Source: Patescibacteria group bacterium
GTDB lineage: Bacteria > Patescibacteriota > Minisyncoccia > UBA6257 > GWB1-50-10
NCBI GenBank assembly: GCA_030017555.1
Contig: JASEIC010000003.1
Span: 1 to 53,556, forward strand
Direction of reading: 5' to 3'
Length of the DNA: 53,556 bases
The position numbers and the translations under genes were made by a program. Shown here in pieces: positions 1,068 to 53,556 of this stretch; within the stretch, counting starts at the first letter, position 1; every line of letters begins with the position of its first letter. A model generated the notes under the pieces. That model did not search any database. It had not been told where the DNA came from and saw nothing but the letters and a program-made list of their open reading frames with translations.

Positions 1068-1121
1068 ACTTATAAGCTGATATTGCTGATTAATACTGAT
1101 TTTTAAGAACGTTTTCTATCT

Positions 1122-1744: not shown

Positions 1745-1903
1745 AAAGTCATTATGCTATCGTCTCAAAAGTGCCTGCGGAGCGCAAACAAAATTGGGTG
1801 CGGTTATAAATTAACTTTGTTTTTTAGCATATTTTTATTATACTAATCAGTACAAATCCGTCTAAGTCCGCATTAATCAGCGTCCAATTAATAGCGATTA
1901 CTT

Positions 1904-4213
1904 ATGCCTACTGAATCAAAATTAGTTAAATTTATTAAATTCGGTTTGTATTTAGTGCTTTTCACGCCATTTGTTTTTGGGCATAGTTTTATGTATCCGT
2001 TTATCTCTCTCAAGGTTTTTATTTTTCAATTTTTAGTTGAGGTAATTTTCGCTTTATGGCTCGCGCTTATTATCTTTTATAAAGAATATCGGCCGAAAAT
2101 CACAATGATTCGGCTCGCGTTTTTAATTTTTCTTGCCGTGATTTTTCTATCCTCGGTTTTTGGCATTGATTTTCACCGTTCGCTTTGGTCAACTCAAGCT
2201 CGCTCAATCGGTTTTATTGCTTTGGTTCATTTCGCGGCGCTGTTTTTCATACTTTCAAGTCTTGGCAGGTATTTGGATTTGAAAAAATATTTTACTGTAT
2301 CATTTTTTGTAAGTTCAATCATCAGTTTAATGACAATTCTTGTTAGTTTTAAATTGTTCGGCACAGATTCTTTTTTAGGCCAAAGTAGTATTCGGCCCGG
2401 CACTTTTTTCGGCAATCCTTCTTTTCTGGCGGCTTATCTTTTGCCTCATATTTTTATTGGTTTTTGGCTTTTAGTTGAAAATAAGGGGTTAAGGTTGCGT
2501 TTTTTGAAGTTTTCTTTGTTAGGGCTCGGTATTATTTTAACTATTGTTGCGCTTTTTATAACGCAGACGCGCGGGGCGATTTTAGGATTGGGGGCTGGGC
2601 TTGTTGCCCTTCTGATTTATTTTTCTTTTTCTAGAAAGGTACGCCTGCCTGCCGAAGTTTTAACGAAGGCGGGGATAGATACGGATAATTATCCGTATAA
2701 ATCCGCTAAAATCCGTATAAATCCGCGTCTTATTTCGATTGTATTGTTGACCTTGATTGTATTATTCAGCACGGCATTTGTCTTTACGCGCAATATTGAA
2801 ATATGGCAAAAAATTCCCGGGGTTAGCCGTTTTGCCGATTTAACGAAATTAAAAACAGGAAATGAACCGCGGCTTATTACTTGGAGTATTGCGTGGAAGT
2901 CGTTTTTATCTCGGCCGATATTGGGTTATGGGTTTGAGAATTTTAAATATCCTTTCGACCGCTATTATGATCCGAAACTGCTCCGTTTTAATTTTGAGGA
3001 AACTTATTTTGACAAGCCGCACAATGTTTTGTTTGAATATTTGGTTAACGGCGGCATGGTTGTTTTTTTGTCTTATGTTTTTTTGTTTTTTGCTTTATTT
3101 TTTGCGATGTTTCGTTCTAAATTATTAAATCGATTTTTGCCGTTTGGCATTGGATTAGTAATCGCATATATTGTTCAAAATTTGTTTCTTTTTGATACTT
3201 TCGGCTCCTATTTAGTGTTTTTTGTTGTCGCGGCTTTTATTGATTCGGTTTACGCGCAAGAAAAAAAGGGAGTATCGGAAAAATATGTTGTTGATGCGCC
3301 AAAATATCTAAAACCGGCATTCTTAATAATTTTTATTTTTTTATCTTTAATTCCAATTTATTTTTTAAATTACCGTTCGGTTTATGCTAACAATAAGCAG
3401 TATTGGGGTTTGAATTATTTTTTGAATCGTTTGTCGCAAGACGCGCTTGATTCTTATTTTTTGGCATTGACGACGCCTAATCCTTATCTTAATGAAGCGA
3501 GAAAAGACCTTGCCAATAATATTTCAGAAATATACATGCAGGGCATTGAAATACCGGAAATTGAAAAAGTTTCAGCAAAAGCAATGGAAGAATTTGCCAA
3601 AGCAATCAGAAAATCGCCCAATGATTATTTTCTACGCGTTAATTTTGCCGATTTAGCGGCGGTTTTTTATGTTTTTGATGAAGATTATTTAAAATTAGCC
3701 GAAGAGCAATTAAATTTAGCGTTTAAATTAAGTCCTAATCGGCAACAAGTTTATTATTCATTGGCTAAATTAAAAACAATAAAAGGCGATTTAAATAGCG
3801 CCAAAGCGCTTATGGAAAAGGCCGTTGCTCTTGACCCGAAAGCGCCCGATCCGCATATTTATTATGGTTTTGTTCTTTTGAAATCAGGAGACGAAGTAAA
3901 AGGTTTTGAAGAAATTGAAAAAGCCAAAGCTTTAGGTTGGCAGCCTAAGTCGGCTAATGACACGAGAATCCTCGCTAATTATTATGGCGAAGCCGGGAAT
4001 TATAAAGAAGCTATTTATTGGTATTTAGAAGCCATTGGAAGGAATCGAAGGGATTTAGAATCTTGGTTAAAATTAGGCATAGTTTATTTTTATAACGGTG
4101 AAAAAGACAAAGCGCGCGAAGCTATAAAGTTAGTGCTTGATGAAAAGCCGGATTTTAGAAATTCGCCCAATTTTGATTTTGTAAAACCAGTTGTTGAAAG
4201 TTTAGGACTGTAG
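1904..4213 (+). CDS. O-antigen ligase family (Wzy_C) membrane protein with C-terminal TPR domain
   Basis: Multi-TM; TQTRGAILGL, GYGFENF, PHNVLFEYLVNGG motifs; C-terminal TPRs. Confidence 0.8.
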   Translation: MPTESKLVKFIKFGLYLVLFTPFVFGHSFMYPFISLKVFIFQFLVEVIFALWLALIIFYKEYRPKITMIRLAFLIFLAVIFLSSVFGIDFHRSLWSTQARSIGFIALVHFAALFFILSSLGRYLDLKKYFTVSFFVSSIISLMTILVSFKLFGTDSFLGQSSIRPGTFFGNPSFLAAYLLPHIFIGFWLLVENKGLRLRFLKFSLLGLGIILTIVALFITQTRGAILGLGAGLVALLIYFSFSRKVRLPAEVLTKAGIDTDNYPYKSAKIRINPRLISIVLLTLIVLFSTAFVFTRNIEIWQKIPGVSRFADLTKLKTGNEPRLITWSIAWKSFLSRPILGYGFENFKYPFDRYYDPKLLRFNFEETYFDKPHNVLFEYLVNGGMVVFLSYVFLFFALFFAMFRSKLLNRFLPFGIGLVIAYIVQNLFLFDTFGSYLVFFVVAAFIDSVYAQEKKGVSEKYVVDAPKYLKPAFLIIFIFLSLIPIYFLNYRSVYANNKQYWGLNYFLNRLSQDALDSYFLALTTPNPYLNEARKDLANNISEIYMQGIEIPEIEKVSAKAMEEFAKAIRKSPNDYFLRVNFADLAAVFYVFDEDYLKLAEEQLNLAFKLSPNRQQVYYSLAKLKTIKGDLNSAKALMEKAVALDPKAPDPHIYYGFVLLKSGDEVKGFEEIEKAKALGWQPKSANDTRILANYYGEAGNYKEAIYWYLEAIGRNRRDLESWLKLGIVYFYNGEKDKAREAIKLVLDEKPDFRNSPNFDFVKPVVESLGL

Positions 4214-4231: not shown

Positions 4232-5650
4232 TTGCTGATGTCAATAGATTTTTTCAAAATTTCAAAATTCTTCCTGTATTTAGTTCCTCTTTGCGTAGTG
4301 GTTGTTTCAACTGCGACCTTATTTCCTTTTATTGTAGGTAAATATGTTTGGTTTCGGACGGCCATTGATCTCGCGTTTATCTTTTTTTTGCTAGGGCTTT
4401 TACTTTTACAAGAAGAAGCCAAAGAGCACGAAAACCGCTTGCGTAAAATTTTTAGTTCTCCGCTTACAATAATAATTTCGCTTTTTGTTCTTTTTTTTAT
4501 TTTAGCCGGATTTTTTGGTATTGATCCCTCTGCTTCTTTCTGGTCGAATTTTGAACGCGGCGAAGGCGGACTTCAGATTTTACATCTTTATGTTTTCTTT
4601 TTGCTTCTTTGCACTTTGTTTAAAAGAGAAAACTGGCTGACTTTATTCCGGGTTTCTCTTTTCGCGGCCGTGTTTTTGATATTATACGGAATTGCTGCTA
4701 CCGCTTTAATCGGCGGTTTTGTCGGGACTTTTCATGATCAAGGCGGTAAACTGATTGCGGATTCTTTTTTGGGTAGGCTTAACGTAGCTCGATTTCAGGG
4801 CAGTCTTGGCAATCCAGCTTACGTGGGTGTGTATTTGATCTTTATTATGTTTTACGCGCTTTACTTATTTACTGAAACTAAAGCGCGATGGCGAAAAAAT
4901 TTTTTAGTAGCGCTTTTGATTTTTTACTTTTTGTTTTTTTGGCTTGCTCAAACAAGAGGTGTCTTTCTTGGTTTGTTCGCGGCAATTTTTGCCGGAGTAG
5001 TTTATTTTATTTTTTCTTCCCGAGGCAGATTAAAAAAATGGGGGATCGGCATATTGGCGTTTTTTGTTGCAGTTACAAGTATTTTATTTTATTTCCGCGA
5101 TACTAGTTTTATAAATAATCTGCCCGGTAGCCGCGTTTTTCAAATTTCGCTAACAGAAGAAACGGCTCAAACCAGATTGTGGACTTGGGGTTCGGCTCTC
5201 AAAGGCTGGAAAGAACGGCCGATTTTAGGTTGGGGACCGGAAAATTTTAGCGTTGTTTTTGATAAGTATTTTGATACTCGTCATTTTTCGCCGGATAAAA
5301 AATCAGAAACTTGGTTTGATCGGGCTCACAGTATTTATTTTGATTATTTAACCGAAACCGGCATTTTAGGATATTTGAGTTTTGTCGGAATTTTTGTAGT
5401 TCTTTATGTGCTTATTTTAAGACGGCGAAAAACAATTGAACGCACAGATTCCAAACTAAAGATAAATAAAGAAATAATTAGTTTTCAGAATCTTAGTTTG
5501 GGTCAAAAATCATTAATTTTTGCAATACCTTTTGCGTATCTTGTTCAGGGCATCGTGCTTTTTGATATTTTACCGACCTATCTTAATTTATTTTTATTTT
5601 TAGCTTTTGCTAATTTTCATTTTACTAACGTAATAAAACAAAATGATTAA
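4232..5650 (+). CDS. O-antigen ligase family membrane protein, paralogue of the preceding gene
   Basis: AQTRGVFLGL, GWGPENF, AHSIYFDYLTETG motifs; multi-TM. Confidence 0.8.
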   Translation: MLMSIDFFKISKFFLYLVPLCVVVVSTATLFPFIVGKYVWFRTAIDLAFIFFLLGLLLLQEEAKEHENRLRKIFSSPLTIIISLFVLFFILAGFFGIDPSASFWSNFERGEGGLQILHLYVFFLLLCTLFKRENWLTLFRVSLFAAVFLILYGIAATALIGGFVGTFHDQGGKLIADSFLGRLNVARFQGSLGNPAYVGVYLIFIMFYALYLFTETKARWRKNFLVALLIFYFLFFWLAQTRGVFLGLFAAIFAGVVYFIFSSRGRLKKWGIGILAFFVAVTSILFYFRDTSFINNLPGSRVFQISLTEETAQTRLWTWGSALKGWKERPILGWGPENFSVVFDKYFDTRHFSPDKKSETWFDRAHSIYFDYLTETGILGYLSFVGIFVVLYVLILRRRKTIERTDSKLKINKEIISFQNLSLGQKSLIFAIPFAYLVQGIVLFDILPTYLNLFLFLAFANFHFTNVIKQND

Positions 5651-40360: not shown

Positions 40361-40463
40361 GTTTGCGTTTTTTGACTTTAATTGCGTTTTCAGTATACTA
40401 GATAAAAAGATGAAATACGCTTTTTCATTCTTTTAATAATTCAGGATTTTTATTTTCGTTGTT

Positions 40464-41246
40464 ATGAGTAAAAAATTTGTAGTTCTTATAATTTTTTTAG
40501 TATTGATTTTTGTTTCAGTTGTGTTTTTTAGGATTAGTCCGTCTGGCGTGACTTTGTTTCAGAATTTGGAACAAAGCGGAAGGTGGCTTCCTTTTATAAT
40601 TGGCGCTTCCGCGCTTATCGATAGCATTAATCCTTGCGCTTTTTCCGTGCTTTTGCTTACAATCGCTTTTCTTTTTAGTATTGGTAAATTACGTTCGAGT
40701 ATCTTGAAGATAGGAGTGTCTTATGTTTTTGGAGTTTTTTTAGTTTATATTCTGATTGGTTTGGGTATTTTGGAGGCTCTTAGTTTTTTCGGTATTCCGC
40801 GTTTTATGTCCAGGATTGGGGCGACCATTCTGATTTTATTTGGTTTGATTGAAATAATTAACGAGTTTTTCCCAAGCTTTCCGATAAAATTAAAGATTCC
40901 ACAGAGCACTCATCATAAAATGGCCGAGCTTATGAAAAAAGCATCGTTCTTTACTGCTTTCCTTTTGGGCGGATTTGTTGGACTTTGTGAATTTCCCTGC
41001 ACCGGCGGTCCCTATCTTTTTGTTTTAGGATTATTACATGATCAGGCAACTTTCTTTAAGGGATTTGGTTATTTAGTTGTTTATAATCTTATTTTTGTAT
41101 TGCCGCTTGTAATTATTCTTTTTATTGCAAGCGATAAAATTCTCTTAGAAAAAGTTCGGGATTGGAAAAAAGATAAAACCGGAAAGATGAGATTGTGGGG
41201 AGGATTAATAATGGTCGTTTTGGGCATTTTTATCTTTGTCTTATAA
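40464..41246 (+). CDS. CcdA/DsbD-like transmembrane thiol transporter
   Basis: ASALIDSINPCAFSVLLLTIAFLFSIG...GGFVGLCEFPCTGGPYLFVLGLL. Confidence 0.8.
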   Translation: MSKKFVVLIIFLVLIFVSVVFFRISPSGVTLFQNLEQSGRWLPFIIGASALIDSINPCAFSVLLLTIAFLFSIGKLRSSILKIGVSYVFGVFLVYILIGLGILEALSFFGIPRFMSRIGATILILFGLIEIINEFFPSFPIKLKIPQSTHHKMAELMKKASFFTAFLLGGFVGLCEFPCTGGPYLFVLGLLHDQATFFKGFGYLVVYNLIFVLPLVIILFIASDKILLEKVRDWKKDKTGKMRLWGGLIMVVLGIFIFVL

Positions 41247-53361: not shown

Positions 53362-53556
53362 TTGGAAAAATTCGTGATATTTTTCAAAGTCAAAACGCAA
53401 GGCAATAACATCGGACGTCAATATATTGAAAAACGGAATTATGATTGGAAAAATTCGTGATATTTTTCAAAGTCAAAACGCACGGCAATGACATCGGACG
53501 TCAATATATTGAAAAACGGAATTATGATTGGAAAAATTCGTGATATTTTTCAAAGT
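53362..53556 (+). repeat. 83-bp tandem repeat, at least 2.3 copies, running off the window
   Basis: ttggaaaaattcgtgatatttttcaaagt at 53362, 53445 and 53528 with near-identical intervening sequence. Confidence 0.97.

Follow-up and report, generated by a model that had tools for sequence, protein, structure and literature searches.

The locus analysed here raises the question of why an O-antigen ligase gene of a Patescibacteria bacterium contains an in-frame palindromic segment, and whether this segment belongs to the gene or came from elsewhere in the genome. The window (the whole analysed stretch of 53,556 nucleotides) is contig C33 of the very small, reduced genome G000, an assembly of 674,215 bases in 39 contigs, which is 99% complete and includes 12,671 bases N. 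Our reading, which we hold with considerable confidence, is that the segment consists of protein-coding palindromic repeats resembling the Rickettsia palindromic elements (RPEs): small, non-autonomous, and surviving in genes where an open frame meets a tolerant loop.

The composite insert of the ligase gene

The features of the locus are presented in Table 1. Homologues of the Wzy_C ligase are present in 47 of 59 relatives. The insert is located in the loop joining helices 223–242 and 274–295 and is an 86-nt composite of two elements, H and D, placed back to back. The preliminary description regarded it as a single palindromic insertion of about 30 extra residues. It is indeed in frame and palindromic, but it comprises two independent repeat elements; the segment has no equivalent in the adjacent paralogue, but its net excess over the orthologues L012 and L013 is 10–15 amino acids. 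The sequence details described earlier were all recovered: the arms CCTGCCT (2644–2650) and AGGCGGG (2667–2673), the perfect 20-bp palindrome ATACGGATAATTATCCGTAT, and the repeated ATCCGTATAAATCCGC, which is found at 2691–2706 and 2711–2726 with a 75% copy in between. An example of the predicted peptide across the insert is LPAEVLTKAGIDTDNYPYK. The AlphaFold model of the ligase (16 sequences) has a mean pLDDT of 85.4, and values below 50 at residues 246–251, 257–259 and 262–271 coincide with the insert, which is the main low-confidence loop of the model and is predicted to be unstructured.

Table 1. Coordinates of the features of the ligase locus in the window.
Feature	Position	Strand	Basis
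Intergenic element D array, 3 units, beyond the PaaX-like gene	1076..1100	-	Array scan of genome
Intergenic element D array, immediately upstream of the ligase start	1846..1881	+	Array scan of genome
Host gene: Wzy_C O-antigen ligase with C-terminal TPRs, 769 aa	1904..4213	+	Pfam PF04932, E 5.4e-21; TPR families
Whole in-frame insert, residues ~247–275	2643..2728	+	Orthologue alignment, AlphaFold
Element H hairpin repeat CTGCCTGCCGAAGTTTTAACGAAGGCGGG, peptide LPAEVLTKAG	2645..2673	+	Family scan; further copies in UvrC and P-type ATPase
Element D, truncated inverted left half GGATAGATACGGATAA, peptide GIDTDN	2673..2688	-	Inverted repeat 2673–2688 / 2689–2704, 88%
Perfect 20-bp palindrome, junction of inverted and forward halves of element D	2679..2698	.	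Palindrome scan
Element D, forward 4-unit array ATCCGTATAAATCCGCTAAAATCCGTATAAATCCGCGT, peptide PYKSAKIRINPR	2691..2728	+	Family and class scans
Paralogous O-antigen ligase, insert absent	4232..5650	+	Pfam PF04932, alignment

The 16-nt unit pattern has eight matches in the window against a shuffle mean of 1.47, a count reached by none of 100 shuffles, and there are three loop-free perfect palindromes of at least 20 bp against a mean of 0.15 per simulated window. Folding of the complete segment as single-stranded DNA is only a little better than that of its shuffles (z −1.61); a strong single-strand hairpin was therefore rejected as its explanation, and the evidence lies in the identity of the repeats, not in hairpin energy. 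The Rfam search of the window returned two tRNAs only.

Other repeats are also found in the window. A minus-strand gene for a PaaX-like protein with a Cas2-like domain (1181–1711) has palindromes on both flanks (1121–1154 and 1713–1745), one a perfect 34-bp palindrome and the other matching it imperfectly, with the core TTCCATATGGAA; they are possibly autoregulatory operators. Element D arrays also stand on either side of this gene. At 53362–53556 an 83-nt tandem repeat with near-identical copies continues past the contig end.

Elements H and D are dispersed and stand in frame in conserved genes

Element H, CTGCCNGCCGWAGYTTYARCRAAGGCRGG, is a hairpin of 29 nt or, taken more broadly, of roughly 29–36 nt. 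Read directly, the consensus has four open frames out of six, mainly giving LPAEALAKAG forward and PAFAKASAG in reverse; the LPAE and PAFAK frames are also the dominant ones among coding copies. The scan of the family gave 17 matches in 11 of 42 genomes, and matches were found in 32 of 150 genomes of the order, with none in the control of either scan. All three copies in G000 are coding, in the ligase, UvrC (SYFERAPAFAKATAGRHDLRI) and the N-terminus of a P-type ATPase. In relatives, in-frame copies are located in LeuRS, SOD, MnmA and LigA, and also in a PBP, PheT, a SIS/PGI protein, ThrRS and an M23 peptidase, these host genes being confirmed by Pfam like UvrC and the ATPase; in the PBP, the orientation of the element at one and the same loop is opposite between two families. 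Intergenic copies are common as well: among the order-level loci examined, rather more than half lack an ORF of 150 aa across the element.

Element D is a 38–39-nt array of four ATCMGY units with a spacing of about 10 nt, either single or paired with an inverted copy in head-to-head arrangement. Copies are found forward, in reverse and head to head, and the element is only partially palindromic, as many copies consist of the forward half only. In the ligase, it is the inverted half ahead of the array that creates the 20-bp palindrome; fuller inverted halves are present in L111, L176 and L261. A single open frame dominates the forward strand and encodes (Y)QHKSAxISINQR-type peptides; the reverse strand encodes LIYADxKLIYAD. 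The reading-frame bias that the preliminary description proposed to look for is present: the frame yielding QHKS-type peptides dominates among coding copies. Since the other forward frames of canonical D hold stops, survival of a single frame is expected from selection alone and no special targeting is necessary.

Concerning the distribution of element D, the family scan gave 48 matches in 11 of 42 genomes (none with the reversed-pattern control), and the class scan found the consensus form in 4 of 384 genomes (control 0); this form is rare outside the family. It is patchy even at the genus level, being absent from G001. The carriers and relatives in the family include Ca. Jorgensenbacteria CG23_54_14 (G023, PCRZ01), GW2011_GWA1_48_11 (G004) and CG03_38_39 (G005), and a Paceibacterota MAG (G018). 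In-frame copies are present in the Pfam-confirmed genes for IF-2, a PEP-utilising enzyme, LeuRS, asparagine synthase, cysteine desulfurase and ThrRS, and also in GyrA, PheT and several other Wzy_C ligases, with several element-bearing loci being MAG contigs of doubtful binning. One ligase ORF (L176, MAG DRR093005_bin.15) contains a pair of identical 38-nt arrays separated by 447 bp and differing in their flanks; judged from its sequence, this pair would be a copy-paste signature. In the 674-kb genome G000, arrays of at least three units are limited to three, which lie within 1.7 kb of each other and in the opening 2.8 kb of the window; given this rarity and proximity, the ligase copy may be of local origin, from an intergenic array.

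A looser decamer pattern is matched, among the matches listed, in Methanophagales, Methanosarcinaceae, Bacteroidota, Flavobacterium, Treponema and others, mostly with no ORF over the array; these matches show breadth and not frequency. The loci L140–L258 belong here: (AATCHGYRTN)n arrays, mostly outside ORFs, in ANME-1, Methanosarcinaceae, Flavobacterium, Treponema and others (again among the matches listed). The GyrA gene of Ca. Jorgensenbacteria CG23_54_14 (L151:3131-7012) contains a LAGLIDADG intein as well as a D array. Viral carriage of element D was considered and rejected, as the pattern search in viral contigs gave no match.

Insert-free sites in the ligase and in other genes

The comparison of orthologues suggested in the preliminary description shows that insert-free orthologues exist. 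In L012 and L013, the true orthologues with 52–53% identity, the ligase loop already has about 17–20 aa; most other relatives have 0–15 aa there, a few have large inserts, and the sequence is unrelated in all. The segment is thus not a protein sequence conserved throughout the orthologues, the outcome that the preliminary description had named as refuting its reading. In the ligase of G011, the same loop contains a 45-nt tandem array of the D decamer theme, and G058, which has a close ligase orthologue, carries a reverse-oriented D array in a different loop of the protein.

Sites with and without inserts are also found in other genes. About 12 family members read YKTGD-VFLDLCRGGHV in ThrRS with no insert, and at the same point G005 and G011 have D arrays and others have unrelated inserts. 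The three D sites of asparagine synthase are filled in L204, L181 and G002 and all absent in G008 and G021; the proteins of the genomes with filled sites are about 57% identical, and some of these copies could be old, inherited insertions. One of the arrays of G002 is itself broken by two hairpins. At site 2 of L331, the D array is interrupted by the different hairpins CTGCCCGCCGATGGGCGGGAG and TCCGCCAGTTGGCGGA, which are nested repeats in a coding region.

Cysteine desulfurase has D arrays at one loop in G025, G023 and G011. The site in G002, of the same genus as G025, is not empty but contains a different palindromic insert of 117 nt. This insert (L328, G002:C5 ~40454–40572) is in frame, has 18-bp terminal inverted repeats (CACGCACAGTTTCTTTTT) and represents a third palindromic type. 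Many family members (L268–L297) have hypervariable inserts at query positions 205–245 and 278–322 of this enzyme, several of which resemble other translated intergenic repeats, e.g. SPPKAGQPRAEK and SKLETRNPKQTRN. Compared by sequence with solved structures, the inserts of ThrRS, cysteine desulfurase and IF-2 fall where the solved chains have few or no residues. Neither a target-site duplication nor exact insert ends could be fixed against the available insert-free orthologues, because the nearest of these are too diverged.

Origin of the elements and relation to known repeats

In Rickettsia, RPEs make up ten families of repeats with a length of about 150 bp (Ogata 2000/2002, reviewed in PMC10969869). 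The likeness in concept that was noted earlier is borne out, as both elements are dispersed and stand in frame in unrelated conserved genes; like RPEs, they are palindromic (D in part), give a recurrent peptide each from a preferred frame, form several families and also occur between genes. However, the modules are of 29–39 nt (86 nt in the composite) and the hosts are Patescibacteria, of a family that includes Ca. Jorgensenbacteria. Because of these differences in size and host range, as described for RPEs, whose sequences were not compared directly, H and D were not filed as RPEs, and kinship with them is not supported. The WPE-like regions of Wolbachia, of about 170–840 nt (PMC4224334), are likewise stop-free, in-frame palindromic gene inserts in a reduced genome, but they are longer and belong to another phylum. 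REP/REPIN sequences with RAYT (Y1) transposases are also palindromes of 20–40 nt at many sites; REPs, however, are extragenic (PMC3733652, PMC2817692, PMC3116915), whereas the H copies of G000 are all coding, and GTAG/CGTC tags were not established in H or D. The TAACTGA repeats of Beggiatoaceae, arrays of a 7-nt direct repeat scattered over the genome, are intergenic as described (PMC4679880). TIGR arrays are known from Patescibacteria and consist of two distinct alternating repeats of 8–12 nt, separated by variable 9-nt spacers and located next to a Tas gene (PMC12045711); they share with D the array of short repeats and the host group, but this identity was rejected on unit structure, since D has four near-identical units with linkers of about 4 nt, often within genes. 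The open-access literature yielded no paper containing the unit strings of the elements and none on in-frame repeats in Patescibacteria.

Could the insert be an ordinary fast-evolving loop, built by local slippage and duplication and only incidentally like repeats elsewhere? The hypervariable length of this loop in relatives, its several unrelated inserts, the tandem array in G011 and the tandem build of D itself would suit such a history. However, the same 29-nt and 38-nt consensus recurs in unrelated genes and genomes with no control match, slippage does not yield inverted halves, and H is not tandem; the dispersed copies already disfavour this explanation, which we regard as improbable. A somewhat better case, still an unlikely one, can be made for a functional site at the DNA or RNA level (a binding site with helical period, or a processing signal) placed by selection in and between genes, given that the period of about 10 nt is close to a helical turn, that arrays of the same theme are mostly non-coding across archaea, Bacteroidota, Spirochaetes and others (among the matches listed), and that some copies stand immediately upstream of a gene in the same direction. 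No regulatory logic, however, unites the genes hit, orthologues lacking the insert are common, and D is patchy even within a genus, G001 having none.

Recruitment of the encoded basic, polar linkers for protein function would account for asparagine synthase sites that stay filled in three genomes at the identity given above, but differing frames and both orientations place unrelated peptides at similar loops, and other loops have entirely different inserts; adaptation of the peptides is highly improbable. An artefact of assembly or binning has next to no likelihood: the named records are MAGs, some with doubtful taxon names, and the window genome has N bases, but stop-free, in-frame copies are found in complete ORFs of many independent assemblies, and artefacts would not respect frame.

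We therefore favour RPE-like coding repeats. Non-autonomous repeats would scatter across the genome, inserted as whole units, and genic copies would persist only where an open frame coincides with a tolerant surface or linker loop, out-of-frame insertions presumably being purged. At this locus, two such dispersed palindromic repeats would have entered a disordered ligase loop in frame and be read as protein; genic copies are probably translated as part of their proteins. Of the family genomes, 6 of 10 with arrays and 11 of 25 without them have a Y1 transposase gene, which the richest D carrier, G023, lacks; by gene presence per family genome, no link between a resident Y1 transposase and D arrays is seen. 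Our guess is that copying may proceed by a replication-coupled template switch, or by a hairpin-processing activity in trans, rather than by a resident Y1 transposase. More tentatively, a copy-paste system of minimal repeats (~29–39 nt) may be, or may have been, active in Patescibacteria with no linked transposase, repeatedly lengthening loops of essential proteins (the G domain of IF-2, LigA, UvrC, GyrA and tRNA synthetases).

Rickettsia and Wolbachia, which both have reduced intracellular genomes, are the main known sources of in-frame 'selfish DNA in proteins'. Patescibacteria reach the same type of outcome in another phylum and with different, much shorter sequences, which suggests that small, coding-dense genomes repeatedly turn the spread of repeats into protein insertions. 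The elements provide a natural catalogue of places where essential proteins tolerate insertions, and they are a warning that some odd loops of Patescibacterial proteins may be translated repeats. The copying of such small repeats becomes a testable question through close strain pairs and, if the copy-paste reading is true, part of the protein-length diversity of Patescibacteria would be translated mobile DNA.
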